Of a stretch of DNA of 21,357 nt, positions 7,619 to 21,357 are shown in pieces (within the stretch, counting starts at the first letter, position 1; each line of letters opens with the position of its first letter). The translations under genes and the position numbers were made by a program. Below the pieces are notes generated by a model. The model had not been told where the DNA came from. It did no database searches and saw only the letters and a list, made by a program, of their open reading frames with translations. The DNA comes from a virus. The stretch covers positions 1 to 21,357 of IMG/VR virus record IMGVR_UViG_3300048538_000084; one strand, written 5' to 3'.

Positions 7619-7620
7619 GG

Positions 7621-7902
7621 TTAGACCTCCTTAATTTTAAATACAAGCTCGTCTTGTATCTGGCGACCATCTGCCGTCACAACGCTAACTTCTACTTTGT
7701 ATTTTACTCCAGCGACTCCGCCTGTGGCCCAAAACTTTACGCGAGGGTCAAAAACACCGACATTTTCCACGGTAAGACCTACCGGAGAGACAGTGGCGGT
7801 AGCAGATTGAACGTTATCGCCGTCAGTTAAGAACTCGGCATAATCAATAGTGTAAGACAGACGTTCGTAAGGCTGCTGCGTTACGGTTCCTAATTTAGCC
7901 AT
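7621..7902 (-). CDS. Small Ig-like beta-sandwich virion protein
   Basis: A 93-aa protein with a beta-strand pattern throughout: QQPYERLSYTIDYAEFLTDG near the start, a TATVSPVGLTVENV strand pair, VKFWATGGVAGVKYKVEVSV (about 55-74) and VTADGRQIQDELVFKI. The WxxGGxxGxxYKVxV pattern is one I recognise from small phage proteins and phage Ig-like domains coded beside fibre genes, probably surface or fibre-network components. Its ATG overlaps the preceding stop by one base (TAATG). Its own last codons hold the ribosome binding site of the tail fibre gene, so translation through this gene may govern fibre expression. No enzyme motif is present. Confidence 0.65.
   Translation of the reverse strand: MAKLGTVTQQPYERLSYTIDYAEFLTDGDNVQSATATVSPVGLTVENVGVFDPRVKFWATGGVAGVKYKVEVSVVTADGRQIQDELVFKIKEV
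7625..7632 (-). promoter_or_regulatory. Strong ribosome binding site for the GTG-started tail fibre
   Basis: AAGGAGGT on the minus strand, seven bases before the GTG at 7616-7618. It lies inside the final codons of the 93-aa gene, and the near-perfect match supports the non-ATG start. Confidence 0.75.
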
Positions 7903-9554
7903 TATGAAGTCCTTTTAAAGACAAATTGTTGGAAAGGCCGGGAGAACAGAAATTGACTAGGCGGCTTGATAAACGTCCGTTCTTCGGGGTCGAAACTGTC
8001 TGGGTTAGCTATGCTATCCGCAAAGAAATGTACTGCGCAGTCTACCAGACAAGTAGGGAACACTGTCCTAGTAGCCGCGAGGGTATTGGTGTTAGTGGCA
8101 CTTACGTCCGCTAAAGGTTTCTTTATAAGAGTGCCTTCTGCGATAACTTGAGAAGTAGTCGCTATGTCTGAAACACCTTGCTTAAAAATAAGGGCATCAG
8201 CATCTACTGACGTACACTCGCCTGCTGTATTAGCGATGCCTACTTTAATAATAACGCCCTCTGAAGTAGCGCTAGCGAAGGGCAGGGATATATTGGCATC
8301 TACAAATCTGGTGACGGTTATCAGAGAATTGAACACATCAACACTTGCTAGTGCAGAAAAGTCAGATTCCCCACGCTCTGCTATTTTAGGTGAGGCTGTC
8401 ACGCTGCTAGATGCAGATATATCTGCTTCCCCGCGCGCTGCTATCCTAGCCTCGGGAACTACAGTCGCATTAGGCAAGCTCAACAAGGCTTCTAACTGCT
8501 GTGTTACAGTGTCGTCGTTCGCGATGCTAGCCGCCGTGGACACTACCGCACTACTTACCTTTACTATCACGCCCGACGCCACTACAGAAGCGTTAGGTAT
8601 AGGTATCGTTATAGCCGTACCTTCGAAAATTATGCTGCCTTGCGCTTGCAGGGCGCTTTCGGCGGCAGGGTCAGCCTCTACTTGTCCTTGGAATACTTGA
8701 TTAGCGTTTGCTAATACCTGTGACTCTGTAGAAAAGTTAGTAAATATAGGCGATGTGAGTGTAGAGTCAGCAACGAAAGTACAATCTGCTGCTATGACGC
8801 TTCCAGAAGTAATGCTTATAGTACCGTCAGGGATCACCGTAGTAGCGCGCGCTGTACTGTCCATTTCACCCGGCAGTATTAGTGTTGCGGTAGGTGCTAC
8901 GGACGCGATACCTGCTAGAGTTTGTGCGGCGCTTTGCCGGAATACAATGCCTGAGTCGGCTATAGTAAGCGTTGCGGTGGCAGGTATATCTAAAAACCCT
9001 TCATATACCCCGTTTACGCCTGTAGTGCCGTAGAACTCCCCCGTACCAAGTATGTCTGCGACGACATTTCTAGTAACGACTACGTTACTAGTTAGTGTTA
9101 CATCGGCAGTACAACCCCCGTCAGAAAACGCGGGCCTAATAAGCGTTGCGCCAGCACTTATACTTGCTGCGGAGGACGCGTCACTTTCACCCAGTACATC
9201 AGCAGGGATTGCCAATATAGACGCTGTAGCAGCCAAAGATACGGCGGTTTCGACAATACGTATTACAAAGGCGTTTACACTACCTATTGTAGTGTTCGCT
9301 GCCGAACCTGCGTAGATTTGCCCCGCTCTAACTACCGCGTTAAACGTGCCTAGAGGGCTTGCGTCTGCGGGAGTTGTACGGACTGCCGTGGGGGTAACAG
9401 TAGCAACGCAGGGGGTAGGAGCTACCCCCGAAAGTATATAGTTGGCTGCACTTGCTACAGAACAAGACGCCGTAACTTGTACGGAGCCTTGTGTGTAAGT
9501 CGATTTGGGAGCGGTGTTTACCGCCGCGCCGTCAGGCGTGTAGAAGGTACTCAT
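7902..9554 (-). CDS. Fibrous virion protein built of 20-22 residue repeats
   Basis: A 550-aa Ala/Ser/Thr/Val-rich protein with almost no charged clusters until its end. From about residue 102 to 510 it reads as a degenerate repeat of 20-22 residues, for example RGEADISASSSVTASPKIAE, GVSDIATTSQVIAEGTLIKK and PLADVSATNTNTLAATRTVF. Alternating small and hydrophobic residues suggest a repetitive beta structure such as a solenoid or prism. The C-terminus (about 519-550) differs: DPEERTFIKPPSQFLF and an aromatic-basic end, a type of tail I associate with marine phage structural proteins. It lies between a small fibre-base-like protein and the Ig-like/tail-fibre pair, so a fibre or whisker role is likely. 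No enzyme motif is seen. Confidence 0.7.
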   Translation of the reverse strand: MSTFYTPDGAAVNTAPKSTYTQGSVQVTASCSVASAANYILSGVAPTPCVATVTPTAVRTTPADASPLGTFNAVVRAGQIYAGSAANTTIGSVNAFVIRIVETAVSLAATASILAIPADVLGESDASSAASISAGATLIRPAFSDGGCTADVTLTSNVVVTRNVVADILGTGEFYGTTGVNGVYEGFLDIPATATLTIADSGIVFRQSAAQTLAGIASVAPTATLILPGEMDSTARATTVIPDGTISITSGSVIAADCTFVADSTLTSPIFTNFSTESQVLANANQVFQGQVEADPAAESALQAQGSIIFEGTAITIPIPNASVVASGVIVKVSSAVVSTAASIANDDTVTQQLEALLSLPNATVVPEARIAARGEADISASSSVTASPKIAERGESDFSALASVDVFNSLITVTRFVDANISLPFASATSEGVIIKVGIANTAGECTSVDADALIFKQGVSDIATTSQVIAEGTLIKKPLADVSATNTNTLAATRTVFPTCLVDCAVHFFADSIANPDSFDPEERTFIKPPSQFLFSRPFQQFVFKRTS

Positions 9555-9572
9555 AACACTCCCGTTATTTCA

Positions 9573-9995
9573 TTACGCTACGGTAACGGTAATTGCTCCA
9601 ATAGCGAAAGAAAGAACGTCACCGTCTAGCAAGGTCTTAGAAGATACTAGTGGGGCATGATACAACAAGTTGCCCGCCGTAGCTGCATCGAAAACACCAA
9701 TGTGTGTAATGGTGACTGAAGACCCTGCGTTGTTAGCGGGAAACGTAATTACTTTTGCATTGGACGAAACGCCGTCTGCGGGAGCAGTCCAGCCAGTGTC
9801 AATGTTGCCGCCATCTGCAGCGTCAACTCGGACATAAGTAGTCCAAGAAGCGTCATTCACCTCTGCGCCGCTAGCAGCATCAGTAGGGTCAGTGGTGAAC
9901 AGCGCAATATATACGCCAGAAGGTACTGGGAACGCGCCGCCCCGAAGGGTGGTCGTCAATATGTTTTGCTCGGTATAATCAGAAAACTGACTCAT
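9573..9995 (-). CDS. Phage virion protein of the ALFTTDP type, tail/fibre-associated
   Basis: A 140-aa protein of a recurrent phage family: an N-terminal helix (SDYTEQNIL), then GVYIALFTTDPTDAASGAEV (27-46), a run of strands (AKVITFPANNAGSSVTITHI) and a strand-rich end with GDVLSFAIGAITVTV. The family is generally seen in tail or fibre modules; its exact role is not known to me. It shares a layout with the 131-aa protein at 20433-20828: ALxTxD, then a GxEV element, then an (A/S)(I/V)TxxG strand and a late strand pair. It opens the second structural block, behind the adaptor gene, with AGAGGA before the ATG. Confidence 0.65.
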   Translation of the reverse strand: MSQFSDYTEQNILTTTLRGGAFPVPSGVYIALFTTDPTDAASGAEVNDASWTTYVRVDAADGGNIDTGWTAPADGVSSNAKVITFPANNAGSSVTITHIGVFDAATAGNLLYHAPLVSSKTLLDGDVLSFAIGAITVTVA

Positions 9996-10007
9996 GGTTT
10001 AAGTCCT

Positions 10008-10712
10008 CTATTGTGCAGGCACGCGCATCGGCGTATTAGGGTTGGAAACCGGATTTGGCGCAACTTGCACCGTTGCTTGTATCTCAATACCAAGAGCGTT
10101 AGCGAACGCCCCGTAGTGAGCCTGTGCGCGCTGCGCATTACCAGCGTACTCGCTGTCTTTGCTATATGCGCGGTACAAAATGTAGTCCTGAACCACATTA
10201 CTATAGATGTCAGGTACGCTAAGCTCACCTGTAACTGACCCCAGCGCTGGGGCTTCGGCTATATCCGAAGGGTACTTAGAGTAGATAACCTCAAGCACTG
10301 CCGTAGTCTTAGCAGGGGGGTAAACGTAAAACTCTAAGGGATTGCGGGGGTCATACATATAGTGCTGGATATTCCCAGACAGAGTTTCTGCATGCCAATC
10401 TGGCTTTTGAGAGTCTAATATTTCGCGGTTAATAAGACGTACGCCGCCAAAAAACTGCTCTGAGTTGTTAATGTTACGCGTAATCTCAATAAGTTTAGCC
10501 GCTGCTAAGCTCGGAGCCTTTAAATCCTGCTTACTGCCAGCTACTAAAGACTTCGTTACTGTAGTTACCATCGCGTCAGGGCGATACAGGACAACTTCGC
10601 GCTGCGCGTCATTAAGATACCGTACTAGTTCTTCTACGGGCCAACGGACAGAAGTTGTGTCTTGGAGTGTATCAATACAGCGCTTTAGTACACTACTAGC
10701 TTGTATGGTCAT
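10008..10712 (-). CDS. Head-tail adaptor protein (DUF6682-like)
   Basis: A 234-aa protein matching a phage family I know as DUF6682, which lies downstream of capsid genes and is thought to form the ring beneath the portal. Visible hallmarks are RWPVEELVRYLNDAQREVVL (23-42), RPDAM with a following GSKQDL stretch, QKPDWH, YDPRNPLEFYVYPPAK, VIYSKYPSDI and the helix DYILYRAYSKDSEYAGNAQR. The helical core with an inserted beta part resembles podovirus adaptor (gp4-like) proteins. The ATG follows the upstream stop by eight bases, with GAGG as ribosome binding site. The last 20 or so residues are Pro-rich. Confidence in the family is good; the adaptor role comes from family position. Confidence 0.75.
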   Translation of the reverse strand: MTIQASSVLKRCIDTLQDTTSVRWPVEELVRYLNDAQREVVLYRPDAMVTTVTKSLVAGSKQDLKAPSLAAAKLIEITRNINNSEQFFGGVRLINREILDSQKPDWHAETLSGNIQHYMYDPRNPLEFYVYPPAKTTAVLEVIYSKYPSDIAEAPALGSVTGELSVPDIYSNVVQDYILYRAYSKDSEYAGNAQRAQAHYGAFANALGIEIQATVQVAPNPVSNPNTPMRVPAQ

Positions 10713-10720
10713 CGTTTACC

Positions 10721-11347
10721 TCACACAAAGGGGCGTGGTTGGGTTTGTAAGGAACCTACTATGCGGCTAATGTTACCCTCATTCCGAGCGTTTTTACACA
10801 ACATTTTAGCCTTTTGTGAGTAAAAATTAGCTTCAGCGAGGTCAGTATAGGGCTGTCCCGGCGCAGACTTTAGCCTAGCTAGTGCCCCAAACGCTATAGG
10901 TTCGTGCCAATAGTCATATAACTCAGTGGCTAAAAACTTTGCGTCAACGGTGGGTCTAAGCGCTAAAGACATGTTTACTGGGTATACGTCGTCAGGCGTA
11001 GCAGACAAGTTAAGTTGTAACTCAGACTCGCTCTGCGTAACGTAATACTTCGTAGGCTTACTCTGCTGTGTCGCTACAAGTGGTAACGAGCTAGCAACTA
11101 TAGGGTGTATTTCATCCCCATCTACAGTCAAATAGATAATACGACTTAGTAGGTGGTTAGTCGGCACATCTACGTCGTATTGGTTAACTCCCGCCACAGT
11201 AGAAAACTCGTCAGCGGTGAATCGTAGGGCTAAAGAGTGTTCACAGAAGTATACGGCGGAATCAACAATCGCTTGCGCAGCAAATGTATTCGGACAGCCG
11301 GGTACGTAAGGTATCACGCGTGCATAAAAATCACTGACCGGCTTCAT
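10721..11347 (-). CDS. Head-tail interface (neck) protein, probable
   Basis: A 208-aa protein. An N-terminal helical region has YVPGCPNTFAAQAIVDSAVY and FCEHS, a central beta region includes GVNQYDVDVPTNHLLSRI and IIYLTVDGDEI, and a C-terminal helical region contains YWHEPIAFGALARLKSAPGQ. The order (AxxFCExS, a Y-x-V-D-x-P strand, then WxEPIAxGALARL) recurs in phage structural proteins coded beside capsid and adaptor genes. A stopper, adaptor or neck role is therefore likely. It pairs with the next gene, eight bases away. The start ATG has no clear ribosome binding site and lies 27 bases after the 91-aa gene, so it may be translated less than the capsid. Confidence 0.6.
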   Translation of the reverse strand: MKPVSDFYARVIPYVPGCPNTFAAQAIVDSAVYFCEHSLALRFTADEFSTVAGVNQYDVDVPTNHLLSRIIYLTVDGDEIHPIVASSLPLVATQQSKPTKYYVTQSESELQLNLSATPDDVYPVNMSLALRPTVDAKFLATELYDYWHEPIAFGALARLKSAPGQPYTDLAEANFYSQKAKMLCKNARNEGNISRIVGSLQTQPRPFV

Positions 11348-11374
11348 AGCTTAGACCCAAAAGTTCACAGCTAA

Positions 11375-11650
11375 TTATAGCGCTTCAGGAGGGTCAACCT
11401 CAATACCTTCACTAGCTAAGTTCTTAGGCTTACGACCGTACTTGGTCTTAGGCTTGGGCTTTTCTGTAGTTTTCACACCTACAGCCTTAGAAGCGTTTAG
11501 CTTGGCTGCTACGGCAGCGCCGACAGGCTCTAGCTTCCACTCGCCACTTGTAGACTTAGCAATGACTTGCTTTTTACCGTCAACCCACGCAATCATACGG
11601 TTCATACTGCATTCGCCGTGTAGTGCTTGGCAGAGTTCGTGTGCGTCCAT
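11375..11650 (-). CDS. Small basic protein downstream of capsid gene, unknown function
   Basis: A 91-aa protein I do not recognise. The N-terminal half is compact (MDAHELCQALHGEC, then IAWVDGKKQVIAKS and WKLEPVGAAVAAKL) and may form a small folded domain. Residues 60-77 are Lys/Pro-rich (TTEKPKPKTKYGRKPKNL), like a flexible DNA- or RNA-binding linker, and the end is acidic (EGIEVDPPEAL). The gene lies between the major capsid protein and the neck genes, where head decoration or minor head proteins are often found. It has AGGAG six bases before its ATG, immediately after the T-run of a predicted terminator, so its expression depends on read-through. Confidence 0.6.
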   Translation of the reverse strand: MDAHELCQALHGECSMNRMIAWVDGKKQVIAKSTSGEWKLEPVGAAVAAKLNASKAVGVKTTEKPKPKTKYGRKPKNLASEGIEVDPPEAL

Positions 11651-11661
11651 AAATATCTCCT

Positions 11662-11694
11662 AAAAGAACGGGGGCCGCGTACAGGCACCCCCGT
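11662..11694 (-). terminator. Intrinsic terminator/attenuator after the major capsid gene
   Basis: On the minus strand, nine bases after the capsid stop codon, ACGGGGG (11688-11694) pairs perfectly with CCCCCGT (11668-11674). The 13-base interior can form two more G-C pairs. TCTTTT follows directly (11662-11667). GC-rich stem plus T-run is the standard rho-independent terminator form. The next gene's ribosome binding site begins right after the T-run, and the gene series continues, so it probably terminates only part of the transcripts. It could also stabilise the 3' end of the capsid mRNA. Confidence 0.75.
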
Positions 11695-11702
11695 GTTTAG
11701 CT

Positions 11703-12692
11703 TTAAGCTACCAGAGCAACTGCTAGGCAGTCAGGCTTAACAACCTTGCGGCCATATACTGCCAATCCGCGAACGATGTCGCCGAAGTCAGTTTGGTTAC
11801 GCAGAGGCTCAGTCTTGCTGATGGTCATAGCAAATGAAGTTGCGTGGTTAGTACCAGCAATCATAGTGCGACGCGCAGCAGACGTATTGGCACCGCCGTT
11901 AGCTGTGGGAGTCAAACCAGAGACAAGCTCTTTGTTGAGTTCGCCACGAGGCAGGAGGTTAGATACGTAAACCGTGAAACGGTCTAGCATACCGATCTTG
12001 CCAGTACGGATGGTGCTAGAGGGATCGCCCATGAAGTTAGCTTGGCCGATGTCTGAACGCATCAAAATCTGACGGTCAAACGGAGACATAATCAACCAGC
12101 GACCTTCCTCGGGTACGTTTTGCTCGTCAAGAGCAGAAGACATACGAAGAATAGTCTCCAACAAGTTGTTGGCGGTAGAAGTGTCGATTGGCGAGGCGTC
12201 AGTACCCAAGTTGTATGCAGCAGACAGCGCACCAGCGGTTGCGCCAGTGTTAGATGCATCTGGGCCTTCAGTAACGAAAGAGTTAAAGAACACTTCGTCC
12301 TCAATGGCAATCTTCATCTGCTTGGCAGCGTCTTCAGTAAACATGTTCATTAAGTCCATGTCAGCTTGCTGCGCAAGTACGTCGTTGGTCTGCACGCTAA
12401 AATACTTAGCCTGATTGACCTGCATATCTTGGAAGATAGGCGTTGGGACTTCAGTGGACAGAGTAGAACCTGCGCCAGTGTAGTCGTTGATGGTGATTGA
12501 AGGCGCAGTGCGGATACGAATGGTATCGCCTTTGTTCTTCAACTCACCTTCGTAGTCAGTGTTGCAAATCTCTGACAACATAGTGTTTTGGTAGAATTTA
12601 GCGAGTAACTTCCCAGACCAGAGGGTAGGGATGAACGCGCCAGTGTACTCGGGCGACGTTGTGAACGCGCCATTAGTCGGAAAAACAGCCAT
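11703..12692 (-). CDS. Major capsid protein
   Basis: A 329-aa protein that forms the icosahedral shell. It matches a phage major capsid family with HK97/P22-type features: an N-terminal FIPTLWSGKLLAKFYQNTML (21-40), ICNTDYEGELKNKGDTIRIR (42-61), PSITINDYTGAG, and the spine-helix region AKYFSVQTNDVLAQQADMDL. Further on come EEGRWLIMSPFDRQILMRSD and the C-terminal FGDIVRGLAVYGRKVVKPDC. The length is normal for the family, and no separate prohead protease or delta domain is seen, consistent with the separate scaffold coded just upstream. The ATG is preceded by an optimal ribosome binding site, and a terminator follows the stop: the signs of the most highly expressed late gene. Confidence 0.92.
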   Translation of the reverse strand: MAVFPTNGAFTTSPEYTGAFIPTLWSGKLLAKFYQNTMLSEICNTDYEGELKNKGDTIRIRTAPSITINDYTGAGSTLSTEVPTPIFQDMQVNQAKYFSVQTNDVLAQQADMDLMNMFTEDAAKQMKIAIEDEVFFNSFVTEGPDASNTGATAGALSAAYNLGTDASPIDTSTANNLLETILRMSSALDEQNVPEEGRWLIMSPFDRQILMRSDIGQANFMGDPSSTIRTGKIGMLDRFTVYVSNLLPRGELNKELVSGLTPTANGGANTSAARRTMIAGTNHATSFAMTISKTEPLRNQTDFGDIVRGLAVYGRKVVKPDCLAVALVA

Positions 12693-12698
12693 GATTGG

Positions 12699-12706
12699 CC
12701 TCCTTT
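12699..12706 (-). promoter_or_regulatory. Optimal ribosome binding site of the capsid gene
   Basis: AAAGGAGG on the minus strand, six bases before the ATG at 12690-12692. Together with the GTG-fibre site it is the best match in the window, as expected for a protein needed in hundreds of copies. Confidence 0.85.
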
Positions 12707-12717
12707 ACAGAATTGGT

Positions 12718-13713
12718 TTACGCAGCGACACGACCTTCCATGTAAGCTGCGTCTATTTCGGCTTCAAGTTTACGTGCCTCATCAGACTTACCCGCTTTCT
12801 GCATGTGCGTTATTTTGACAAACATAGCCCTAATTTGATCGTTAGTGTATGTCTTGCCCTTTGGCGCAGGTGTAGATGGCGAGGAAGTGCTTTTTGAGGG
12901 TTGAATCTGACTCTCAATCTCTTTGTTAACAACCTGTTGTGCAGGATCAGCTTCTTGTTGGGAGTTCTTAAACAAGTTAACAAAATGTGCAACGCTATCA
13001 GCGTCACCTTCAGAAAAGGATTTTTCGGCCACAACCCGACGCGGTGCACGTAAGAGGGGGTCATGCTCGTCTAACCACTGAATCCAGTTAGGATCAGCGT
13101 TTACCTGAACGAAATCAGGCACTAAACGATGCAATTCCTGCTCAAACGATGTCTGGGTTACCTTAGAGCCAGTCTGTTCCAGCATTTCCCTAAGCTGGTT
13201 GTTCTCGCCCTGTACGGCTTCAAGCTGTTTATATAGCTCGGCGGATTCTTCTCTTGCGATTTTGCGCGATATTGCAATCAGATCGTCACCAAATTCTTGA
13301 CGGTCTTCATCAGTAACCAGATTTTGAAGCTGCTCGTGCTTGGCTTGCTCTTTGGCTTCTTCCACCGCTTTGTCAGAGGCTTTAACTTGCGTAACTAGAT
13401 CATCTAGCTTACTTGTTAAGTCTTTAACTTGTTGGTGGAGCCTAGGAACTTCCGCATCGTACATACCTTGTAGGGTTTTGTACTTCTGCTTCCAAACCTT
13501 GCCTTCTTCGTCTGGTTTTTCTGCCTCTACCTTTTCAGCAACAACTTCACTGGCTGGTTCTTGCGATTGTGCTGGCTCTTGCTTTGCTTCGGGTTCCACC
13601 ACTTCCGCTTGGGGAGCCGTATCGACTTCCGTTGCAGGGGCTTCTCCATAAAGCTGCTGGCTTAGTTCATCGGCTTCACTGGCTTGTGCTTGTACTTGCT
13701 TTGGTATTGGCAT
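12718..13713 (-). CDS. Capsid scaffold protein
   Basis: A 331-aa, strongly acidic, helical protein expected to guide capsid assembly inside the prohead. The first 70 residues are disordered and rich in Glu, Ala, Pro and Gln. EGKVWKQKYKTLQGMYDAEV (70-89) is a segment I know from phage scaffolds upstream of this capsid type. Coiled-coil stretches cover about 86-130 and 150-182. A C-terminal helical pair (about 290-327, with YTNDQIRAMF and SDEARKLEAEIDAAYMEGR) is the likely coat-binding end. I chose ATG at 13711-13713 over the GTG one codon upstream (13716), because AGGAG lies six bases from the ATG but only three from the GTG. It sits directly before the capsid gene. Confidence 0.85.
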   Translation of the reverse strand: MPIPKQVQAQASEADELSQQLYGEAPATEVDTAPQAEVVEPEAKQEPAQSQEPASEVVAEKVEAEKPDEEGKVWKQKYKTLQGMYDAEVPRLHQQVKDLTSKLDDLVTQVKASDKAVEEAKEQAKHEQLQNLVTDEDRQEFGDDLIAISRKIAREESAELYKQLEAVQGENNQLREMLEQTGSKVTQTSFEQELHRLVPDFVQVNADPNWIQWLDEHDPLLRAPRRVVAEKSFSEGDADSVAHFVNLFKNSQQEADPAQQVVNKEIESQIQPSKSTSSPSTPAPKGKTYTNDQIRAMFVKITHMQKAGKSDEARKLEAEIDAAYMEGRVAA

Positions 13714-13738
13714 CACTCTCTCCTAAAGCTCCAACTCT

Positions 13739-13768
13739 GTGACACGCTCCTGTTGGTCTGCGTGTAAC
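13739..13768 (-). other. Inverted repeat (hairpin) in the scaffold leader
   Basis: Two 9-base arms, GTTACACGC and GCGTGTCAC as read on the minus strand, pair at eight of nine positions around a 12-base loop. It lies in the longest gap of the window, about 26 bases before the scaffold start. No T-run follows, so it is not a standard terminator. It could be an RNA processing site, a translation control element or a protein-binding palindrome. Confidence 0.45.
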
Positions 13769-13787
13769 ATAATGGTTTGCTGGATAT

Positions 13788-14024
13788 TTACGCCTTACGG
13801 CGGTCTAAAACCTCTTGCGATTGTTCTACCGCGTTGAGGAAATCTCTTAGAACACTAGCTTGACCCTGCAAGCGGTGGATTACCCAAGGTTCTTCTGCTG
13901 TAACAAGTCTGTCTTTTACGTTATCCAAAAGGGTAGCAAAAAGCTCCAGTAACTTGTCATCACGCAGTTTACACTCGCGTAACGCCTGTACATGCTGTCG
14001 GTCTGTTTTATGCTCTAAAAACAT
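13788..14024 (-). CDS. Small helical head-region protein, unknown function
   Basis: A 78-aa, charged, all-helical protein (LRDDKLLELFATLLDNVKDR, then HRLQGQASVLRDFLNAVEQS). The RLQGxAxxLxxFLxxVE pattern recurs in small proteins coded just upstream of scaffold genes in several phage groups, so it is probably head-related. No biochemical role is known to me. It could be a minor scaffold or packaging helper. The start ATG has only a weak ribosome binding site and follows the upstream stop by nine bases. A 74-base gap with a hairpin separates it from the scaffold gene. Confidence 0.65.
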   Translation of the reverse strand: MFLEHKTDRQHVQALRECKLRDDKLLELFATLLDNVKDRLVTAEEPWVIHRLQGQASVLRDFLNAVEQSQEVLDRRKA

Positions 14025-14033
14025 AGGGTTAAC

Positions 14034-14582
14034 TTATATCATACCTAACGCAACTGCAACAAGTTCTTCGTCCGTTAAATTTCTAACAACTGTAGGTAAC
14101 GAAACTTGGTGTAGCGTTATGCCAGCGCCCAACTTGTTAGCTGCTTCCGCACTACCTGCTGGTACTGCTATGCCGTAATTTGTCACCCCGACACTGTTAG
14201 CCCCTTCTAATATGTTAGCAGTCTGCACTGTAGCTGTTGCGGGCTGTGCGTATATACGGAATTGGGGCGTAGTAGTCGTTACACCTTTCCGCTCTATTTC
14301 TGGCAGCGGCGCGGGATAAACAATATCTGGCGATTTTTCGGGTAACGGCGGGGCTGGGGGGCGGAATAGCGCTGGTGGCACTACCGCTATAGGCGGCGCG
14401 ATTTCCCACAACGCCTTAACTTCTGTAAATACTTCAGGAGTTGTAGCGCGCTTACGGAAGGGGAGTATCGTCCCACCCGTATTCTGCTGGGCTGGTTGTA
14501 CTACTTCGGGGCGTTGTTGCCCTAAAGCCGTAGTAAACGTATCAGCGCGGAATGTCCTAGCTGCGAAGGTACTAAGTGGCAT
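14034..14582 (-). CDS. Proline-rich virion-associated protein, unknown function
   Basis: A 182-aa protein without an enzyme motif. It begins MPLSTFAARTFRADTF, has a Pro-rich middle (about 62-95, with APPIAVVPPALFRPPAPPLP) that is probably extended or disordered, and a more ordered end (VGVTNYGIAVPAGSAEAANK, then VVRNLTDEELVAVALGMI). It is likely a structural linker or accessory surface protein, because it ends the block of structural genes and overlaps the 219-aa gene by 11 bases. The short acidic helix NLTDEELVAVALGMI at the C-terminus could be a docking element. I do not recognise the family. Confidence 0.6.
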   Translation of the reverse strand: MPLSTFAARTFRADTFTTALGQQRPEVVQPAQQNTGGTILPFRKRATTPEVFTEVKALWEIAPPIAVVPPALFRPPAPPLPEKSPDIVYPAPLPEIERKGVTTTTPQFRIYAQPATATVQTANILEGANSVGVTNYGIAVPAGSAEAANKLGAGITLHQVSLPTVVRNLTDEELVAVALGMI

Positions 14583-15231
14583 CCCTCACCACCGCAGTCC
14601 TGTTACCATTTTCGTCTACGGTGACTACTACGCGGTCTTTACTATCATCCAGATCACGGAACGTTTCAGTGCCAGTGCCCGCACCCGAGACTTTTCCGGT
14701 GAGCATTGACGCCATAAGGCGGACTAATTCTTCTGCGTTTAGGGATGACTCAAGCACCTGCTGCCAAACCGCTGTGGCGTTATCAGAGCTAGATGGGACA
14801 GCACTAAGATCGCCCGTAACAACGTTAGTCTTCGTTTCAACCGTATTGACCAAAGACGATATTTGCGCGGGGAACACCGCTGCGCCATCTTCCACAAAGT
14901 AGTAAGGAGTAGAGTAGTCGTCGGAAAACAAAACCCCTGTTATGGCGACAACCCTAGGGTCATACAGTAACTTCCAGTTGTTAATTAAAAAGTAGCTGTC
15001 CCCTGTAAAACCGCCGGGGATTGGGTCAAGCCCGGTGAACCGCATGGCAAAGTAGTATCGCTCGTTGTCAGCCCGTTCTACCCATCTAACCCAAGCCGAG
15101 TAGACTTCAGTACGTATATCTAGGTTAGTAACACCGTCGTTAACTCGGATCGTGCGCGTTTCGCCGTTGAAGCTGACTTTTTCAGCATCCAGCCATTCTT
15201 CGCCATGCGCCGCCCAGAGTGGTACTGACAT
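14572..15231 (-). CDS. Virion structural protein, tail/fibre-base type
   Basis: A 219-aa protein. The N-terminal domain (about 1-130) has short strands, then VYSAWVRWVE (43-52), YYFAMRFTGLDPIPGGFTGD, a FLINNWKLL strand and VVAITGVLFSD. I recognise the YSxWxxW, TxGxDPI and WKL order from a widespread phage structural family, probably a beta-rich tail or fibre-base domain. After a linker, the C-terminal part (about 165-219: EELVRLMASMLTGKVSGAGT, TETFRDLDDSKDRV, VDENGNRTAV) is a second recurrent phage module. Its ATG directly follows the stop of the 661-aa gene with no gap. The N-terminal domain looks related to that of the 472-aa protein in the same block. Confidence 0.65.
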   Translation of the reverse strand: MSVPLWAAHGEEWLDAEKVSFNGETRTIRVNDGVTNLDIRTEVYSAWVRWVERADNERYYFAMRFTGLDPIPGGFTGDSYFLINNWKLLYDPRVVAITGVLFSDDYSTPYYFVEDGAAVFPAQISSLVNTVETKTNVVTGDLSAVPSSSDNATAVWQQVLESSLNAEELVRLMASMLTGKVSGAGTGTETFRDLDDSKDRVVVTVDENGNRTAVVRDAT

Positions 15232-17217
15232 TTACTGAATTATCTCTTTCCAGTTGACGACCACCATTATCTTGGCGTTAGGGTAGTAAGCTGTTCGTGT
15301 CTTAGCAAAAAAGCTCCATATAACTCTAGACCCTTGAAAGCCTTTGATATTGCCGCCAGTTGCCGCGCCCAAGGATATGGGTGTCGTTAATCCAGCGTCC
15401 GAGTAAAGCTCCGCGCTATTGACGCTGACAGGTTTAACATAGACAGTTAGATCATCGTAGCTAGCGTTGTCAGTACCCGTAATTGTGTACCCGCCAGCGT
15501 TGAATGGGAAAGTAACCGTCATAGGCTCTCTGACGTTAATCCGTCCTGTTGTCGTCATAACAGCGGGTGATCCCGCAGAGATTGCCGCTATCGTGTTCTC
15601 AACCGTACCGCCATCATCGGGGAAGTTCTTAACCGCGCCATACTGCAAGTTGTTAAACGTGTCAGTAAGAATGCTGTCGTACCGACCTTTAAACATATCC
15701 TGAAGAATTATCTTGCCGCCTTCAAAGCTGGCTCCAGCCGTTGATATTTCGACATTAGTGCCAGTAACGGTAGAAAAAACATTGTCGTTATCGACGCTGT
15801 TAATTTCCATCTTCAGATCAATGATTGCATCGGCACCGTCGAATTGACCTACAGCAGCGCCCGTGTCGTTAAACGCATACGCGTTAATGGATGTAGGCAC
15901 ATACAGACTATGGTTGACCTCTCCATTTGCATGAAGCTCTCTTGGACTCAGTGCGAACAAGCGCTGCCAGTTATCACTGATGTTTGCTGTGACCGTCGTG
16001 TGGGGCGAAGCGTAAGTCGCGGGTGAGCCGTAGGCCCGAAGATCAATGTCACTCTCAGTCCATACTGCCGCAGACCATGATTCAACATACAAGTTAGTAG
16101 ACGAGCCACCCGTAGATTTACAAGAGTAACAAGCTGGCAGAGAAGCTGTTTGGCTCATCGCCTGAGCATATTCATTACCCTGATAATAGCTATGACATAC
16201 AACTCTCTGTCCTTCCTCGTACACACCGAAGCGTACACGACCAGCGCCGTGCCACTGTACGTCGATCCACCACAAGTTTACCTTTGCCAGATCAAGAACA
16301 ACCTGACTGTCGCCGGTTCCATCCAGCTTATCACCGTTCCACGACGACCTTGGGATAATTGTGTCTTTCTGTGCTGCCTCGGGAATGCTTGACCTGATTA
16401 CAACAGAAAGTCCGGTAGCGTCAGTGGCGTCAACACCGCCAGTGCCAACGCGGAACAGGAACCCGTTGTTAGCGTCGAACAATCCCCATTGACGAATGTT
16501 ACCTGTCGTAGCAGGGGCGTTTAAAAGCGCAGTACCCGCCCAGAGATGGCTAGAGCCAGCTACATAATGGTGGTACTGGTTGGATGACGAAGACGCAAAC
16601 CCATTGGCAGCGTCAACGGTGTTGTCCACACCTATCTTTATAGAGTGCCGTGTGTTGCTGTAATCGGCATAGCCTCCAGATAACTCGACAGGCGAGAAGT
16701 TGGCCGTAAATACTTCTTCCTGACCAAATACATAGTCGCCTAACTGAGTGCCGCCACTAACACGTAACTTGCCCCAAGCATCTAGCTGGGGCAGTCCTTC
16801 GGCAAATCGAATGTTTGCAGAGCCAGTAATGTCTACGTCCAAGCCATATTCAGGGTTATCGAAACCCATAATGTTTGCGCTGGGAATATAAACATCGTAA
16901 GCAGCTACGACTGTACCAACAACGGCAGAAGTATCGGGGTCAAGAATATCTTGACCCGCTATAGGTTGCCTGTCCTCAGTGTATCTATCCACGTTACTGT
17001 AGTGCACGGATAAATGCCCTGCGGAGTCAGTACCTTGGCGACCATGCAAATGCACCATCATAGTGGGGCCACCGGCCCCGCTTATCGTGTACATACGCCC
17101 AATCTTCCAAGGCCCAACACCACCAGAGAACTCTACTTCGGCGGTATGGACATGATAAATCCTATCGCCCTGTCCTCTCGGTGGTAGTTGAGTATTCCTT
17201 CTTTCGTTGTTAGGCAT
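15232..17217 (-). CDS. Large virion structural protein with conserved phage surface domain
   Basis: A 661-aa protein. Residues about 144-380 form a domain I recognise from many phage structural proteins: DAWGKLRVS (146-154), HHYVAGSSHLWAGTALLN, RQWGLFDANNGFLFRVGT (242-259), SVVIRS, WNGDKLDGTG (293-302), and VQWHGAGRVRFGVYEEGQ. The segment before it has strands and loops (YHVHTAEVEF and VGPWKIGRMYTISGAGG). The C-terminal third is beta-rich (TVTFPFNAGGYTITGT, SAELYSDAGLTTPI, KIMVVVNWKEIIQ). No hydrolase or glycosidase motif is evident. It is probably a tail or appendage surface protein. The ATG is preceded by AGGAG at six bases, and the gene lies 12 bases after the 472-aa gene. Confidence 0.7.
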   Translation of the reverse strand: MPNNERRNTQLPPRGQGDRIYHVHTAEVEFSGGVGPWKIGRMYTISGAGGPTMMVHLHGRQGTDSAGHLSVHYSNVDRYTEDRQPIAGQDILDPDTSAVVGTVVAAYDVYIPSANIMGFDNPEYGLDVDITGSANIRFAEGLPQLDAWGKLRVSGGTQLGDYVFGQEEVFTANFSPVELSGGYADYSNTRHSIKIGVDNTVDAANGFASSSSNQYHHYVAGSSHLWAGTALLNAPATTGNIRQWGLFDANNGFLFRVGTGGVDATDATGLSVVIRSSIPEAAQKDTIIPRSSWNGDKLDGTGDSQVVLDLAKVNLWWIDVQWHGAGRVRFGVYEEGQRVVCHSYYQGNEYAQAMSQTASLPACYSCKSTGGSSTNLYVESWSAAVWTESDIDLRAYGSPATYASPHTTVTANISDNWQRLFALSPRELHANGEVNHSLYVPTSINAYAFNDTGAAVGQFDGADAIIDLKMEINSVDNDNVFSTVTGTNVEISTAGASFEGGKIILQDMFKGRYDSILTDTFNNLQYGAVKNFPDDGGTVENTIAAISAGSPAVMTTTGRINVREPMTVTFPFNAGGYTITGTDNASYDDLTVYVKPVSVNSAELYSDAGLTTPISLGAATGGNIKGFQGSRVIWSFFAKTRTAYYPNAKIMVVVNWKEIIQ

Positions 17218-17229
17218 TACTAACTCCTA

Positions 17230-18648
17230 TCAGTCCGTATATGCTCTATCTTGCTCAGCAGTTAGTGTAACAACGTTGGACTTACTTCGCTCAACTGTAG
17301 CCGTAGCTACCACTGGCTTAGCTACGCCCTTGTTACCCGCGATAACTGTGATCGGTATGGTTGCGGAGTTTTCGTCTGCATCCACTCGACCGCCTTGCGT
17401 ATTGTTATCGAAGTCGATAGAGAACGTCAACGACGCAGCGTTGATCGTGCCTGATATATCTGTATCAGTATTATCGTCTAGGACAATCGCGGTAGCTGTT
17501 CCGTAGTCATCTGTTCCACTAACCGAGTCTGTGATGTAAGCAACGAAGTAGCCTGTGCTGCCTGTTTGTAGGAAGCTGTTAAAGTTAAGCTGCAACGTAG
17601 CGGCGAAGTCAAAGATTCGCTTGGTGCCAGCGTTATCGAAGAAGTCTACGTTGTTCTTGTCTTGAGGACGTAGGTTCTCAATAAACACACTGTTTGAGCA
17701 GATTAGCTGGTTACCCTCAAACCGCATAAGCAGGTCTTGAATATCACCGCGCTTTGTGCCGTCGTCACCAGCAGTGTTTATGTCAGTCGTCTGCCGTAGC
17801 AGATATTGGACTTTGGTGTAAATCTGCTGGAGCGTTTTATTGTCCCCATCAATAATGATTCGGAAATCAAAATCGTCGGCAGCGTCGTTAATGTCGATTG
17901 ACTGAGAAGAAGTGTAGTAGCTTACGTCAATGTTGGCGTAGGTGGCTGATTGTGACCCAGTAATCTCTGCGTCAGTGTTGACAACGTTGGAGTCAACAGC
18001 GTTAGACAGCAGTGCGTTAACGATAAACGCGCCTGTACTTGTCTGACCTGTATCAGAAAGAATAGAGTCGTCGTACGTAAAACCTTCCTCTCGGATATAG
18101 CCTTTAAAGAACGTCTGAGAGTCAAAGTTTCCGTTTGACGCATCCCCGAAAATCTGGATAGCTTGGTTAGGCTCGTCGTCAAAAACAAAGTCAGCAGGAG
18201 TCGCGCCTGAGACAAGCTGATAATACGCTTGACCGCCGGTATTGAACTCTCCCAAGCTCACCAAGCCTACATAACGACGCTTTAGGTTTCCTGTATCGGA
18301 AGTCCCTGCAATGTCGGGAGTACCTGCGGCTTCGTATTCGTTAAAACCACCGTCACGAATCGCGTTTCGCGTTGCGTCGTTAGCTGGCCCCCAGTCGTTG
18401 AACCTAGAACCGTCAAAACCAAATTCAAACTGACCAGATTTTGCGTCAATTGCGTACATAGGGAACGGGAAGCTGTTATAAGCAGAGGTTTCCCAAAGCT
18501 TAATAAACTTAGAATACAGCGCTTGGGCTGTAACACCGTCTTTAAAGACAAGGTTACCCGCCTCTAAAAGTGTGAAAGTACGGGCGGTGGTGTCAATCGT
18601 AATCTCGGTGCCAACAACAAGATCATCACCATCAATAATTTTAGCCAT
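17230..18648 (-). CDS. Virion structural protein of the LYSKFIKLWE/PFPM type
   Basis: A 472-aa acidic, beta-rich protein. The N-terminal segment (about 20-80) holds ARTFTLLEAGNLVFKDGVTA, ALYSKFIKLWE, then FPFPMYAIDAKSGQFEFGF, a run I recognise from a phage structural family of unknown exact role. The middle has long strand-turn stretches (RRYVGLVSLGEFNTGGQAYY) and a helix (LQQIYTKVQYLLRQTTDIN), and the end has VVTLTAEQDRAYTD. It lacks membrane and catalytic motifs. It is probably a fibre or baseplate-like component working with its neighbours. The ribosome binding site AAGGGGGA lies just before the ATG. The N-terminus resembles that of the 219-aa protein and the C-terminal tip that of the 588-aa protein. 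Confidence 0.68.
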   Translation of the reverse strand: MAKIIDGDDLVVGTEITIDTTARTFTLLEAGNLVFKDGVTAQALYSKFIKLWETSAYNSFPFPMYAIDAKSGQFEFGFDGSRFNDWGPANDATRNAIRDGGFNEYEAAGTPDIAGTSDTGNLKRRYVGLVSLGEFNTGGQAYYQLVSGATPADFVFDDEPNQAIQIFGDASNGNFDSQTFFKGYIREEGFTYDDSILSDTGQTSTGAFIVNALLSNAVDSNVVNTDAEITGSQSATYANIDVSYYTSSQSIDINDAADDFDFRIIIDGDNKTLQQIYTKVQYLLRQTTDINTAGDDGTKRGDIQDLLMRFEGNQLICSNSVFIENLRPQDKNNVDFFDNAGTKRIFDFAATLQLNFNSFLQTGSTGYFVAYITDSVSGTDDYGTATAIVLDDNTDTDISGTINAASLTFSIDFDNNTQGGRVDADENSATIPITVIAGNKGVAKPVVATATVERSKSNVVTLTAEQDRAYTD

Positions 18649-18662
18649 TTGTTAATCCCCCT

Positions 18663-20429
18663 TTAAGGAACGTAGTTTCTATCAAGTTGTTGCGCTACGG
18701 GCAGCGTAGCACTGGCCGATCCAAGCTCAAATCCGTATATGAAGAACGGTGTGTACCCTTCCGCGTATACTTTTATGTCTACGAATGTTCCCGCAGAGAA
18801 AGTGTACGTGTAGGTAGACGTAGTTCCAGATATATCCTGATCGTCTTGCAGTTTTGTAATAGAACCGGCGGTATATATTACCACATCAGAGCCAGCTATT
18901 ACCCCACTAATTGTCAGGGTAGCTTGCCCCGCTACTACATTAACGGTTGCGCCAGCAGAGCGTATGCTGGGTATTGTGGCCCCTGCGGCCACATTTATTG
19001 TCAAAGTACCAGAGGCCACGTTTACAAATATGGCCTCGTTTCCAGTGCTGCTAGTTGATGCAGGTGAACCTGTAGCGCCTGTAACATACCCTGTTGCTGT
19101 CGAATCCCAGTCTGCTGAACCAGCGCCAAGACTTGTAAGCTCTACAGCGTGATTTGAGCCATCGCTTTCAAAAACGCAATCTGTGATTTCTGTTAGATCA
19201 TTTGCTAATAAGCTAGCTGAATCGCGGGCATCGCTAAAGCTATTTCTTTCAATCGTCGATCCGCCTTGAGTTACAAGCCCGCAGCGGCGAAAAGTAGTGT
19301 CTGCTACCGTTGCATTACTCTGAAATATAAAAGTACCCATATCAGTCCAAGTACAACCAGTCATTGCCACGGTGGCATTATCAACCATTTCAAAGTTGCC
19401 ACGCGGCTGGGCTGGCGCGTAATTTGCGTTTTGGCTGGTTATAACGTCACTTCTAAACACCAAAGACGCATTAGTGTTAATAAAATTGACGGTACTTGAA
19501 GCATTGCGTACTTCTATTCTGTTGAAATCATCATACGTAAGAAACTCATCTCTTACGTTGATACTGCTGTTGTAATCTTCAAAAAACACAGCCGTTGCCG
19601 ATGTTCCTAACGACCAAACACCACGCATAATATAGCCGTTACTTTCTAGGCTAGGTTCACATATCCCAAACTTGTGAAAGCCCCCATCAACTGCCGTACC
19701 GTTCGCTGGGGAATTATTGTTGTTATCGTCATAAGCTGCCATTTGCATGAAGTTAGCAGCAGACGAATTTTCGGGGTCAGAAGGCAATATATTAGTATTT
19801 GTGCCACCCGTTGCGTTTAATTGCATTCGGCCAAATCTAGCGCAATCAAGTGCCGCCAACGGATCACGGCGTAAAGCAAAGCCTCTAGTAGAGTGTGTCC
19901 AGCCGACATATCTTGGCGCTCTACCTGCTGATCCAAGAGATGCAACAGATAAATTTGAGTCTGGGCCTGTCGGAGTATTTCTAAGGTCTACAACGTATAA
20001 CTGCCAACCGCCTTTGACGTTTACATCGTTTCCGTCTACGCGGTAGGTGTTAATGTTTGCAGTACCCGAAGTGCCTCCGTCTGCAACTACTGCCTGAACA
20101 CCTGCCCAGTTCGTTACGTTAAATCCTACGCCGTGGTTAGTGAAGAAAGGAATAAATACCCACATTTGCAGGACGTAACCGGCCACATCAGTAATCGTAC
20201 TGGCGCCGGTAGTTGTGGTGTCTAACAGTAAGGAATTTTCTCGGTTTGCCCTTCGGTTTGTGTTGGTAGAAAGAGCAAATCCACCCTGATAAAAAATCTC
20301 ATTATCAGAATCAATATTTTGGTTAATAATCGAATCGGCGTATTTGCCGCTCAGATTAACAACCGCACCATTACCGCCGTTACCATCGGTCAATGTGGTG
20401 TTATTTGCTAGTGCGTATGTACCCGCCAT
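18663..20429 (-). CDS. Fibre/appendage protein with beta-helix-like region
   Basis: A 588-aa protein. The first 270 residues look like a lectin- or sandwich-like module (VLQMWVFIPFFTNHGVGFNV, then GGWQLYVVDLRNTPTGPDS and YVGWTHSTRGFALRRDP). Residues about 302-436 show short repeated strands and turns with Asn/Ser/Thr ladders (RIEVRNASSTVNFINTNASL, FEMVDNATVAMTGCTW, SNATVADTTFRRCGL), as in right-handed beta-helices of phage adhesins. About 465-588 is a beta-rich end with LTINVAAGATIPSIRSAGAT and a terminal QQLDRNYVP. Carbohydrate binding or degradation is possible, but I see no defined active site. The ATG follows the previous stop by three bases with no good ribosome binding site, so it probably relies on coupling. 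Confidence 0.68.
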   Translation of the reverse strand: MAGTYALANNTTLTDGNGGNGAVVNLSGKYADSIINQNIDSDNEIFYQGGFALSTNTNRRANRENSLLLDTTTTGASTITDVAGYVLQMWVFIPFFTNHGVGFNVTNWAGVQAVVADGGTSGTANINTYRVDGNDVNVKGGWQLYVVDLRNTPTGPDSNLSVASLGSAGRAPRYVGWTHSTRGFALRRDPLAALDCARFGRMQLNATGGTNTNILPSDPENSSAANFMQMAAYDDNNNNSPANGTAVDGGFHKFGICEPSLESNGYIMRGVWSLGTSATAVFFEDYNSSINVRDEFLTYDDFNRIEVRNASSTVNFINTNASLVFRSDVITSQNANYAPAQPRGNFEMVDNATVAMTGCTWTDMGTFIFQSNATVADTTFRRCGLVTQGGSTIERNSFSDARDSASLLANDLTEITDCVFESDGSNHAVELTSLGAGSADWDSTATGYVTGATGSPASTSSTGNEAIFVNVASGTLTINVAAGATIPSIRSAGATVNVVAGQATLTISGVIAGSDVVIYTAGSITKLQDDQDISGTTSTYTYTFSAGTFVDIKVYAEGYTPFFIYGFELGSASATLPVAQQLDRNYVP

Positions 20430-20432
20430 CAG

Positions 20433-20828
20433 CTATACCAACATAATCTGTTTTTCAGGTATATTTACGACGAACGGGCCGTTAGTGCTTGTGTAATCAG
20501 CGCCCCAGCCTCCGACAAACAACGCTGTGTTGTTTTTGGAAGTGTCGTATATCATATACCCTGCGGCGGTTATAGAGGCTCTAGGCCACTCCGCGTTACC
20601 CCACGAAATAAACGCGCTACCATCTGTGTCGTTCTCCACGCAGCAGCTATGCAGCTTCATACCGCCAGCCTTATACCCGGCCCCAGTAACTTCCCCTACA
20701 GAGGTGTAGAGCGTTGTTTCCGGCCCTAGTTTGGCGTCTGCTGTGTATAGCGCGAGTTTACAGGAGTCATTTATAATTGACTTCAAAAACAACAACTTAG
20801 CGGCTGATGTTAACCCTGTTTGTATCAT
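20433..20828 (-). CDS. Phage virion protein of the ALYTADA type
   Basis: A 131-aa protein: an N-terminal helix (LTSAAKLLFLKSII), then CKLALYTADAKLGPETTLYT (23-42), SVGEVTGAGYKAGGMKL, WGNAEWPRASITAAGYMIYD (76-95) and a strand-rich end. The pattern ALYTxxAxLG, GEVxGxGYxxGG, WPxASITAxGxxIYD recurs in phage structural proteins coded near portals or fibres, with no role known to me. It overlaps the portal gene as ATGA (20825-20828). It resembles the 140-aa protein at 9573-9995 in layout, suggesting two copies of one fold in the two structural blocks. Confidence 0.62.
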   Translation of the reverse strand: MIQTGLTSAAKLLFLKSIINDSCKLALYTADAKLGPETTLYTSVGEVTGAGYKAGGMKLHSCCVENDTDGSAFISWGNAEWPRASITAAGYMIYDTSKNNTALFVGGWGADYTSTNGPFVVNIPEKQIMLV

Positions 20829-21357
20829 CCGTTGCGTCCTGTTGCGACGTTTCGCATCTGGTTACCGTCGCGACCGCCGACAGGCGAACCATCGGGTAAC
20901 AGGGGCGCAGCTTTCGAGCGCGTTGCGCCGGTGACGTTGCCTTGAGCATCACGCGCGAACTCGACGTTATCTGGTGCAGCACTCATAGACTCCTGTAGCA
21001 TCATAAGTTGTTGTTGCAACTGGGTAATCATCTGTTGCTGTTCTTCTATCATAGACACTTGGTTACTGTCTGGAACGACCTTATCGACGTTCATGTTCAA
21101 GTTCTTAGCCGCATCTCTTAACAACTCAGCAGTTCCGCGTGCGCCTACAATCTGGCTAGCTTGTTGACTGTTAAGTACAAGCTGTAAGAACTCGTTACGT
21201 CGAATCGCTTCAGCTTCTTTGACGACTAGCGAACTAGCCCCGCGTGCCACGATGTTAACGTCACCGACTATCTCAGGGTCTTGGTTATACCGTAGATTGT
21301 CTTGGTACAGGCGCTCAATGGCCGGTACGATAACGTTCTTGTCGATGTTGTTGATTA
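20825..21357 (-). CDS. Portal protein, C-terminal part (5' end beyond window)
   Basis: The open frame runs from the right edge to TGA at 20825-20827, giving 177 complete codons of a longer gene. The internal ATG at 21248-21250 is not a real start, because coding sequence with family motifs continues upstream: INNIDKNVIVPAIERLYQDN, then RYNQDPEIVGDVNIVARGAS. After ASSLVVKEAEAIRRNEFLQL comes IVGARGTAELLRDAAKNLNM, a coiled coil (MIEEQQQMITQLQQQLMMLQ) and a flexible Gly/Asn/Arg-rich tail. This pattern (IErLY, GDVNIVARGASSL, KE..R..EFLQ) matches the C-terminus of a portal family in short-tailed phages as I recall it. The portal is the 12-fold DNA entry ring at the head vertex. Confidence 0.72.
   Translation of the reverse strand, partial: INNIDKNVIVPAIERLYQDNLRYNQDPEIVGDVNIVARGASSLVVKEAEAIRRNEFLQLVLNSQQASQIVGARGTAELLRDAAKNLNMNVDKVVPDSNQVSMIEEQQQMITQLQQQLMMLQESMSAAPDNVEFARDAQGNVTGATRSKAAPLLPDGSPVGGRDGNQMRNVATGRNG

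Follow-up and report, generated by a model that had tools for sequence, protein, structure and literature searches.

Two remotely related proteins of a virus genome fragment as putative beads of two chain-like appendages

Fibre I of the Ralstonia podophage GP4 reportedly consists of five gp80 dimers on a rope, which is consistent with the 10 chains of gp80 sequence found in PDB entry 8jou. At the neck of the Shigella phage Sf14, gp30 and gp31 dimers form whiskers, and one copy of gp30 threads through them, according to the accessible part of its description (PMC11821841). As far as the accessible text of two further papers goes, gp014 of Agrobacterium phage 7-7-1 is the small homodimer of a flexible garland round the baseplate (PMC12796354), and Anabaena phage A-1(L) has a 15-fold ring at its neck that bears five fibres, each a chain of beads (PMC10966104). 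Here we compare with these systems two small proteins, of 131 amino acids (aa; positions 20433..20828) and 140 aa (9573..9995), that are encoded in the 21,357-base virus record IMGVR_UViG_3300048538_000084. This whole stretch is called the window; its assignable genes, including every gene of the window described below, are all on the minus strand. The original prediction saw in the two proteins a duplicated base protein that anchors two different appendage systems. Our analysis favours, with a probability of roughly 60%, a reading in which two bead proteins, ancient paralogues of each other, build two chain-like appendages (fibre I and a whisker at the neck), and the two proteins may well serve two different appendages.

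Relationship between the 131-aa and 140-aa proteins

Both open reading frames (ORFs) lie where they had been predicted, and they have a common layout beyond what chance would give: ALYTAD in the 131-aa protein and ALFTTD in the 140-aa protein, then GEV and GAEV, then SITAAG and TITHIG. Written as an ordered regular expression, this layout was found in 47 of 190 ORFs of the phrog_644 family and in 30 of 89 ORFs of the Gp80 family, compared with 1 of 2138 other ORFs of similar length (100-190 aa) in the loci collected up to that point. The layout itself therefore holds, but the wording of its motifs had been too strict, since a literal GxEV occurs only in the 140-aa protein and the third motif of that protein starts with T, not with A or S.

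The 140-aa protein is a member of PF23140, 'Podophage GP4 fiber I protein gp80' (E = 6e-41; 140.1 bits versus a curated Pfam cut-off of 27), it matches phrog_240 (E = 3e-28), and it has a solved homologue in PDB chain 8jou_a (E = 1e-37). The 131-aa protein matches only phrog_644, a family of unknown function (E = 6.3e-8, residues 20-128). BLASTP detected no link between the two proteins (E = 1.2). An initial hhalign comparison of the family profiles gave a probability of 48 (E = 1.9e-4), and without mostly-gap columns the probability was 72.7 and 85.2 in the two directions (score 34.3 and 38.2, over 83 and 103 columns). In the first direction, none of 300 column-shuffled profiles reached 34.3 (maximum 23.0), and a reversed profile scored 17.5. 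Ten unrelated families of the same loci gave a probability of at most 0.4, after 3 of 13 control families with too few sequences had been left out. Moreover, when the hidden Markov model of each family was run against 10,511 ORFs, 32 of 71 and 31 of 73 matches below the threshold belonged to the other family. The profile tests were based on alignments A2 (78 rows) and A3 (30 rows), which were reduced to A4 (68 rows) and A5 (26 rows), respectively, for structure prediction.

The AlphaFold2 models of both proteins match the neck whisker protein gp31 of Sf14 and, weakly in the case of the 131-aa protein, GP4 gp80. For the 140-aa protein (predicted local distance difference test, pLDDT, 86.7), the model fits 8jou_a with Z 18.4 and a root-mean-square deviation (rmsd) of 1.6 over 134 residues; its second-best matches are 9c39_K and 9mt4_K (both Z 9.2), which Foldseek finds at E = 4.1e-4 and 9.5e-5, respectively. 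Chain 9c39_K is Sf14 gp31 (gp31 of phage Sf17 matches it at E = 7e-69), and 9mt4_K is taken as one of six Bas63 chains of matching sequence. The model of the 131-aa protein (pLDDT 91.5; predicted template-modelling score 0.83) has 8jou_a as its first Foldseek match among 350,542 PDB chains. VIA-align places it closest to the Bas63 and Sf14 neck chains (Z 9.3 and 9.1; rmsd 3.0 over 105 residues for 9c39_K), and 10 of its 12 top entries are also matched by the 140-aa model, five with Z values of 6.8-18.4. Among predicted viral structures, Foldseek returned 8 matches to the 131-aa model at E up to 0.001, including one to a structural protein from phage 7-7-1 and several to proteins that are uncharacterised.

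Several results weigh against reading the 131-aa protein as a relative of gp80. A Pfam scan (E up to 1) and NCBIfam assigned it to no family, so that it is not filed as a Gp80 member, and a Pfam scan of 78 phrog_644 members did not include Gp80 among the 25 of 27 families listed. Searching PDB sequences with the phrog_644 family profile at E up to 10 did not recover 8jou. The first-ranked Foldseek match to 8jou_a is itself weak (E = 0.12, probability 0.66, TM 0.38), and its VIA-align value of Z 6.3 (rmsd 3.6 over 105 residues) falls in the range that VIA calls common. For the 140-aa model, the other five entries shared by the two models have Z values of no more than 4.6-5.3, which unrelated PRMT rows reach as well, and the likeness of the two models is judged through PDB entries common to both lists. 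The predicted fold of the 131-aa protein is nearer to the whisker bead (Z 9.1-9.3) than to gp80, whereas the profiles link it to gp80 instead: the phrog_644 profile gave an hhalign probability of 0.1 against whisker gp31, represented by two sequences only, so that the 131-aa protein is not filed in the gp31 family, and the link between phrog_644 and Gp80 fell to 41.1 and 78.1 once these two sequences had been included in the Gp80 profile. Three further sets of matches were set aside: scattered weak Pfam matches of the 78 phrog_644 members (best E = 0.0016, RRM_1 in one member), cytosine deaminases (from E = 0.32) in the PDB sequence search with the 131-aa protein, and an antibody chain (E = 0.39) in the PDB search with the family profile, the last two taken as chance.

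A protein that merely has a beta arrangement in common with gp80, such as a head-proximal cement or portal-side protein, would also be compatible with part of these data. The 131-aa gene adjoins the portal gene, a VIA tool note states that Z 6-9 can reflect a common arrangement, and 1 of 78 phrog_644 members weakly matches the phage cement family PF09956 (E = 0.08). However, all 12 entries found by VIA-align with the 131-aa model at Z 6.2-9.3 are viral fibre, arm, baseplate, tail or neck structures, the next value being 3.4. The controlled profile-profile link and the position of phrog_644 genes beside rope and fibre genes in other phages also speak against a cement role, which we consider highly unlikely. 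Profiles and models together make it fairly well supported that the 131-aa and 140-aa proteins are remote relatives with a common predicted fold. As the two families are beyond BLAST range, and as most of the loci fetched (largely fragments) contain only one of the two, the pair represents an ancient split or a separate acquisition. The duplication originally proposed is thus retained as remote relatedness but not as a recent event; the families are old, and either a duplication or a separate acquisition may have given rise to the pair in the window.

A predicted fibre I module around the 140-aa protein

Homology to Gp80, together with a separate Gp77-type gene two genes further on, indicates that the 140-aa protein is a bead and that the base is the product of another gene. 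By analogy with GP4, dimers of the 140-aa protein would be strung on the 550-aa protein (7902..9554), a probable rope protein encoded directly after the Gp80 gene. The N terminus of the 550-aa protein belongs to a set of eleven similar rope N-termini, all of them encoded by genes that lie behind a Gp80 gene. Its internal-repeat score (z 6.3, from 100 shuffles) is not decisive alone because the background, with a median of 0.9, has its 90th percentile at 8.9, and this score discriminates ropes weakly in general. A PDB sequence search with the 550-aa protein found no relevant chain (a lipase at E = 0.03), and a similar search with the BcepIL02 rope protein gp56 gave no match.

The 93-aa protein (7621..7902) belongs to PF23148, 'fiber-tail adaptor gp77' (E = 3e-21; 76.1 bits versus a cut-off of 27), and matches PDB chain 8jou_D (E = 2e-12). 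Judged from this homology, it is the likely anchor of fibre I and would hold the chain at the neck, as in GP4. The role of an anchoring base, originally assigned to the 140-aa protein, therefore fits the 93-aa Gp77 homologue and not the 140-aa homologue of the gp80 bead. The next gene encodes the 1292-aa tail fibre (3740..7618), whose N-terminal 113 aa match the tail fiber family phrog_8469 (E = 1e-14).

Upstream of the Gp80 gene are two structural proteins, of 208 aa (10721..11347; virion structural protein, phrog_437, E = 3e-29) and 234 aa (10008..10712; phrog_399, E = 1e-55), which by their position are probably tail adaptors. The complete order of transcription in the window is portal end, 131, 588, 472, 661, 219, 182 and 78 aa, then a scaffold-like protein (332 aa), the major capsid protein (329 aa), 91 aa, the two adaptor-like proteins, and finally 140, 550, 93 and 1292 aa followed by smaller genes. 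Among the matches listed (40 of 368 records), the major capsid protein is closest to that of Rhizobium phage RHph_TM3_14A and its three relatives (42% identity). Direct DNA repeats were sought in the window, and nothing relevant was found.

As a side observation, the label 'head protein' carried by members of phrog_240 (for example FelixO1 ORF55; L264 34209-34541) looks wrong, because the solved members seen are the GP4 fibre I protein and the Sf14 and Bas63 neck whisker proteins.

The portal-side gene, its cassette and a candidate second rope

The 131-aa ORF lies directly downstream of the portal end and overlaps it by 4 nucleotides. The portal role of this ORF, the C-terminal end of a gene (20825..21355), is deduced from phrog_332 (category connector, E = 3.5e-10); the ORF also matches, at 7e-69, a 709-aa ORF that precedes the 131-aa gene in L013, one of the fetched loci (L numbers). 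Behind the 131-aa gene stand genes for proteins of 588 aa (18663..20429), 472 aa (17230..18648), 661 aa (15232..17217; virion structural protein, phrog_1645, E = 1.5e-40) and 219 aa (14572..15231; homologues in L002, L021 and L006).

In the window, each of the two small genes opens a run of beta-rich proteins, as had been noted, but for the 131-aa gene this arrangement is not conserved. In L013 and L017, whose Gp80 proteins are 85% and 84% identical to that of the window, the order is portal, 131 aa, 238 aa, 78 aa, scaffold and capsid, without the 588/472/661/219 genes between the 131-aa gene and the scaffold gene, and L006 has a different gene set in this block. The idea that the 131-aa protein is the founder of a fibre block was rejected on the basis of L013 and L017. 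Compared with L002 and L003, the DNA of the window is 99.5-99.7% identical on either side (within the covered stretches) with 18925-20424 unaligned, and the 588-aa protein differs in its first ~500 residues while the last ~86 are kept. Judged from these sequences, the 588-aa gene appears to encode an exchangeable surface protein in which the C-terminal end is constant, and its product is a candidate receptor-binding protein. The different blocks of L013, L017 and L006 and the allele swap of the 588-aa gene indicate that in these relatives the 131-aa gene keeps its place beside the portal gene and that the cassette which follows it varies. Accordingly, the large beta-rich genes that separate the two bead genes would form a variable surface-protein cassette and not a unit founded by the 131-aa protein.

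These gene orders also bear on the original idea that the 131-aa protein is a base anchoring the 588/472/661/219-aa appendages, with the 140-aa protein as the base of the second block. Arm and baseplate proteins carry appendages, chains of this kind from phi812, A511 and T4 have the same fold, and the 131-aa gene is followed by the block in L002, L003 and L004 as in the window, and in L006 with an 88-aa ORF between. However, L013 and L017 contain the 131-aa gene without the block, and the adaptor for the 140-aa protein is a different gene, Gp77, which makes such a base rather improbable.

Five cassette genes of two phage types end in a [DE]Rx[YF] tail (QQLDRNYVP, AEQDRAYTD, AALERNFSNP, QFFDRNYRNP and PRIDRVYKNL): 17230-18648 and 18663-20429 in the window, and 6883-8874, 8892-10169 and 10397-12685 in L006, where the 663-aa protein is a homologue of the 472-aa protein. 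Such an end occurs in 32 of 4318 ORFs of at least 100 aa, with ~6 expected, and 24 of the 32 are accounted for by the five cassette genes together with their copies in loci that are related or overlap. The motif is a possible docking tail. A wider proposal, in which phrog_644 is a general bead module of whiskers and chain fibres, and the phage builds two bead-on-rope appendages from paralogous beads, the neck-proximal one carrying exchangeable receptor-binding proteins that dock through the conserved C-terminal [DE]Rx[YF] tail, is in our opinion speculative and on the unlikely side.

A profile trained on the eleven rope N-termini, including that of the 550-aa protein of the window, was run against 10,511 ORFs. 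Outside its training set, it matched best (E = 0.006, the next at 0.3) the product of the L013 238-aa gene, which lies directly after the 131-aa gene, and the alignment starts at residue 1. BLASTP matches of the same 238-aa protein to ropes (E = 0.034 and 0.048) were set aside as composition-biased, and the N-terminal profile was used instead. The 182-aa protein of the window (14034..14582), homologous to the L013 protein (E = 1e-16) and to its L017 counterpart, is the candidate thread of the 131-aa beads. At the sequence level, these results are suggestive of a second rope encoded after the 131-aa gene, not proof of it. Two observations count against it. The 182-aa protein has no rope-type N terminus, and a repeat-rich gene within two genes downstream was found for 41 of 84 phrog_644 beads and 20 of 31 Gp80 beads, only a moderate enrichment over the about 0.29 expected. 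This count covered 84 of 96 phrog_644 and 31 of 35 Gp80 beads, and left out loci L001 and L103, beads absent from the simple gene map, and beads for which no gene of at least 100 aa lay on the same strand within two genes.

Alternatively, both beads could sit on the same 550-aa rope, so that two genes would contribute to one mixed chain in a single appendage. Two bead genes can indeed stand in one locus, as indicated by seven loci with paired phrog_644 genes and by L127 and L148, where a phrog_644 gene and a Gp80 gene lie within about 1 kb, and in the window no protein other than the 550-aa one looks like a long rope. However, in L013 and L017 the 131-aa gene stays with the portal gene, about 5 kb from the rope gene, and the L013 gene that adjoins it itself begins like a rope. 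A mixed chain thus seems distinctly unlikely to us.

Under the favoured reading of two paralogous beads, the 131-aa protein would be a bead of the same fold encoded beside the portal gene. It would probably dimerise, and an extended partner would thread the dimers. The most likely partner is the 182-aa product, which in relatives has 238 aa and a rope-type N terminus, and the resulting chains would be short neck whiskers like those of Sf14 gp30/gp31. We infer the dimers on a rope, the location at the neck and the thread role of the 182-aa protein from these comparisons.

A possible second type of rope protein was seen elsewhere. CRP-902 gp53 (L091 12446-13372) and L134 6956-7288 begin alike (YASGK...), with a Cys pair in L134 that is not present in CRP-902, and gp53 continues into rope-like repeats (z 36.9).

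Distribution of phrog_644 and comparison with known appendages

A degenerate-pattern scan of IMG/VR yielded at least 541 confirmed relatives of phrog_644. The gene neighbourhoods of this family are diverse. In HTVC027P and L010, a repeat-rich rope-like gene lies directly behind the phrog_644 gene. In CRP-902 and MW202675, the phrog_644 gene lies directly before a fibre gene and a few genes behind an annotated 'tail adaptor', roughly the slot of Gp80 in BcepIL02. It follows the coat gene and precedes a fibre or repeat protein in CRP-603 and MiniFlayer, the latter with a 68-aa ORF between. Its position is nevertheless not fixed, since in GMA1 and REQ3 it comes after the lysis genes. Both families were found in seven of the 263 sequences searched, which include the window and some overlapping or duplicate entries: the window, L013, L017, L100, L101, L127 and L148. 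Three contigs hold both families in separate loci (L002/L011, L006/L024 and L007/L023). The paired phrog_644 genes, two divergent copies adjacent or nearly so, are in L105, L122, L129, L134, L135, L174 and L182; in L105 and L134, a repeat-rich gene lies within two genes behind the pair.

Two other phages deserve mention. In phiCbK (L101 5786-6175 and 8854-9267), gp72 (phrog_240) and gp75 (phrog_644) lie within 3.5 kb, before the giant lectin-like gp76, and are candidate appendage parts, perhaps of its head filament. The satellite phage MiniFlayer, which sits on the neck of its helper, encodes (L095 5186-9997) a protein similar to phrog_644 (tblastn 34.5%, E = 4e-4). Nearby is the gene of a 1376-aa protein whose PMTGSG repeats (repeat z 10.7) are rope-like, and this bead and rope may matter for sitting on the helper neck.

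In the open-access PMC literature, we found no paper that refers to phrog_644 by name, none on the Bas63 neck and none on the phi812 'arm segment', although for the latter the wording of the query was perhaps at fault. The family is large and has no assigned function, and its link to the fold of GP4 fibre I and the Sf14 whisker gives it a testable role, which covers many 'hypothetical proteins' of pelagiphages, roseophages, phiCbK-type phages and actinophages. The 131-aa protein is probably the bead of a second neck appendage, which would indicate a likely role for a large phage family of unknown function.

The closest known system is fibre I of GP4, whose gp80 belongs to the same family as the 140-aa protein and has the same fold. 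A matching gene order is found in the Burkholderia phage BcepIL02, with a Gp80 homologue, a 285-aa repeat-rich protein, a 92-aa protein that is Gp77-like by eye, and a fibre. The 131-aa protein resembles gp80 in predicted fold and by remote profile similarity but, unlike gp80, it has no Pfam match, is encoded beside the portal gene and lacks an adjacent Gp77. In its gene position it is comparable with whisker proteins of the Sf14 gp31 type, encoded close behind the portal gene, as is the 131-aa protein in the window, L013 and L017. In Sf17 and FelixO1, the order is portal-gp30-gp31, which places the whisker bead two genes after the portal, and their gp31 proteins belong to phrog_240 (E = 2e-27 and 6e-29), the same PHROG as the 140-aa protein. 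However, Sf14 has a contractile tail, its thread gene precedes the bead gene, and no sequence link connects gp31 with phrog_644. The neck fibres of A-1(L), likened here by description only, differ in having trimeric beads and, in the accessible text, a gp82N described as pilus-like. By structure alone, the garland protein gp014 of 7-7-1 (PDB 9rkv; chain A taken to be gp014 from its size and the accessible part of the paper) gives Z 6.2 with the 131-aa model and Z 4.7 with the 140-aa model, although it lies at the baseplate of a large myophage. Taken together, these comparisons suggest that one bead-and-rope design is used at the neck, tail and baseplate.

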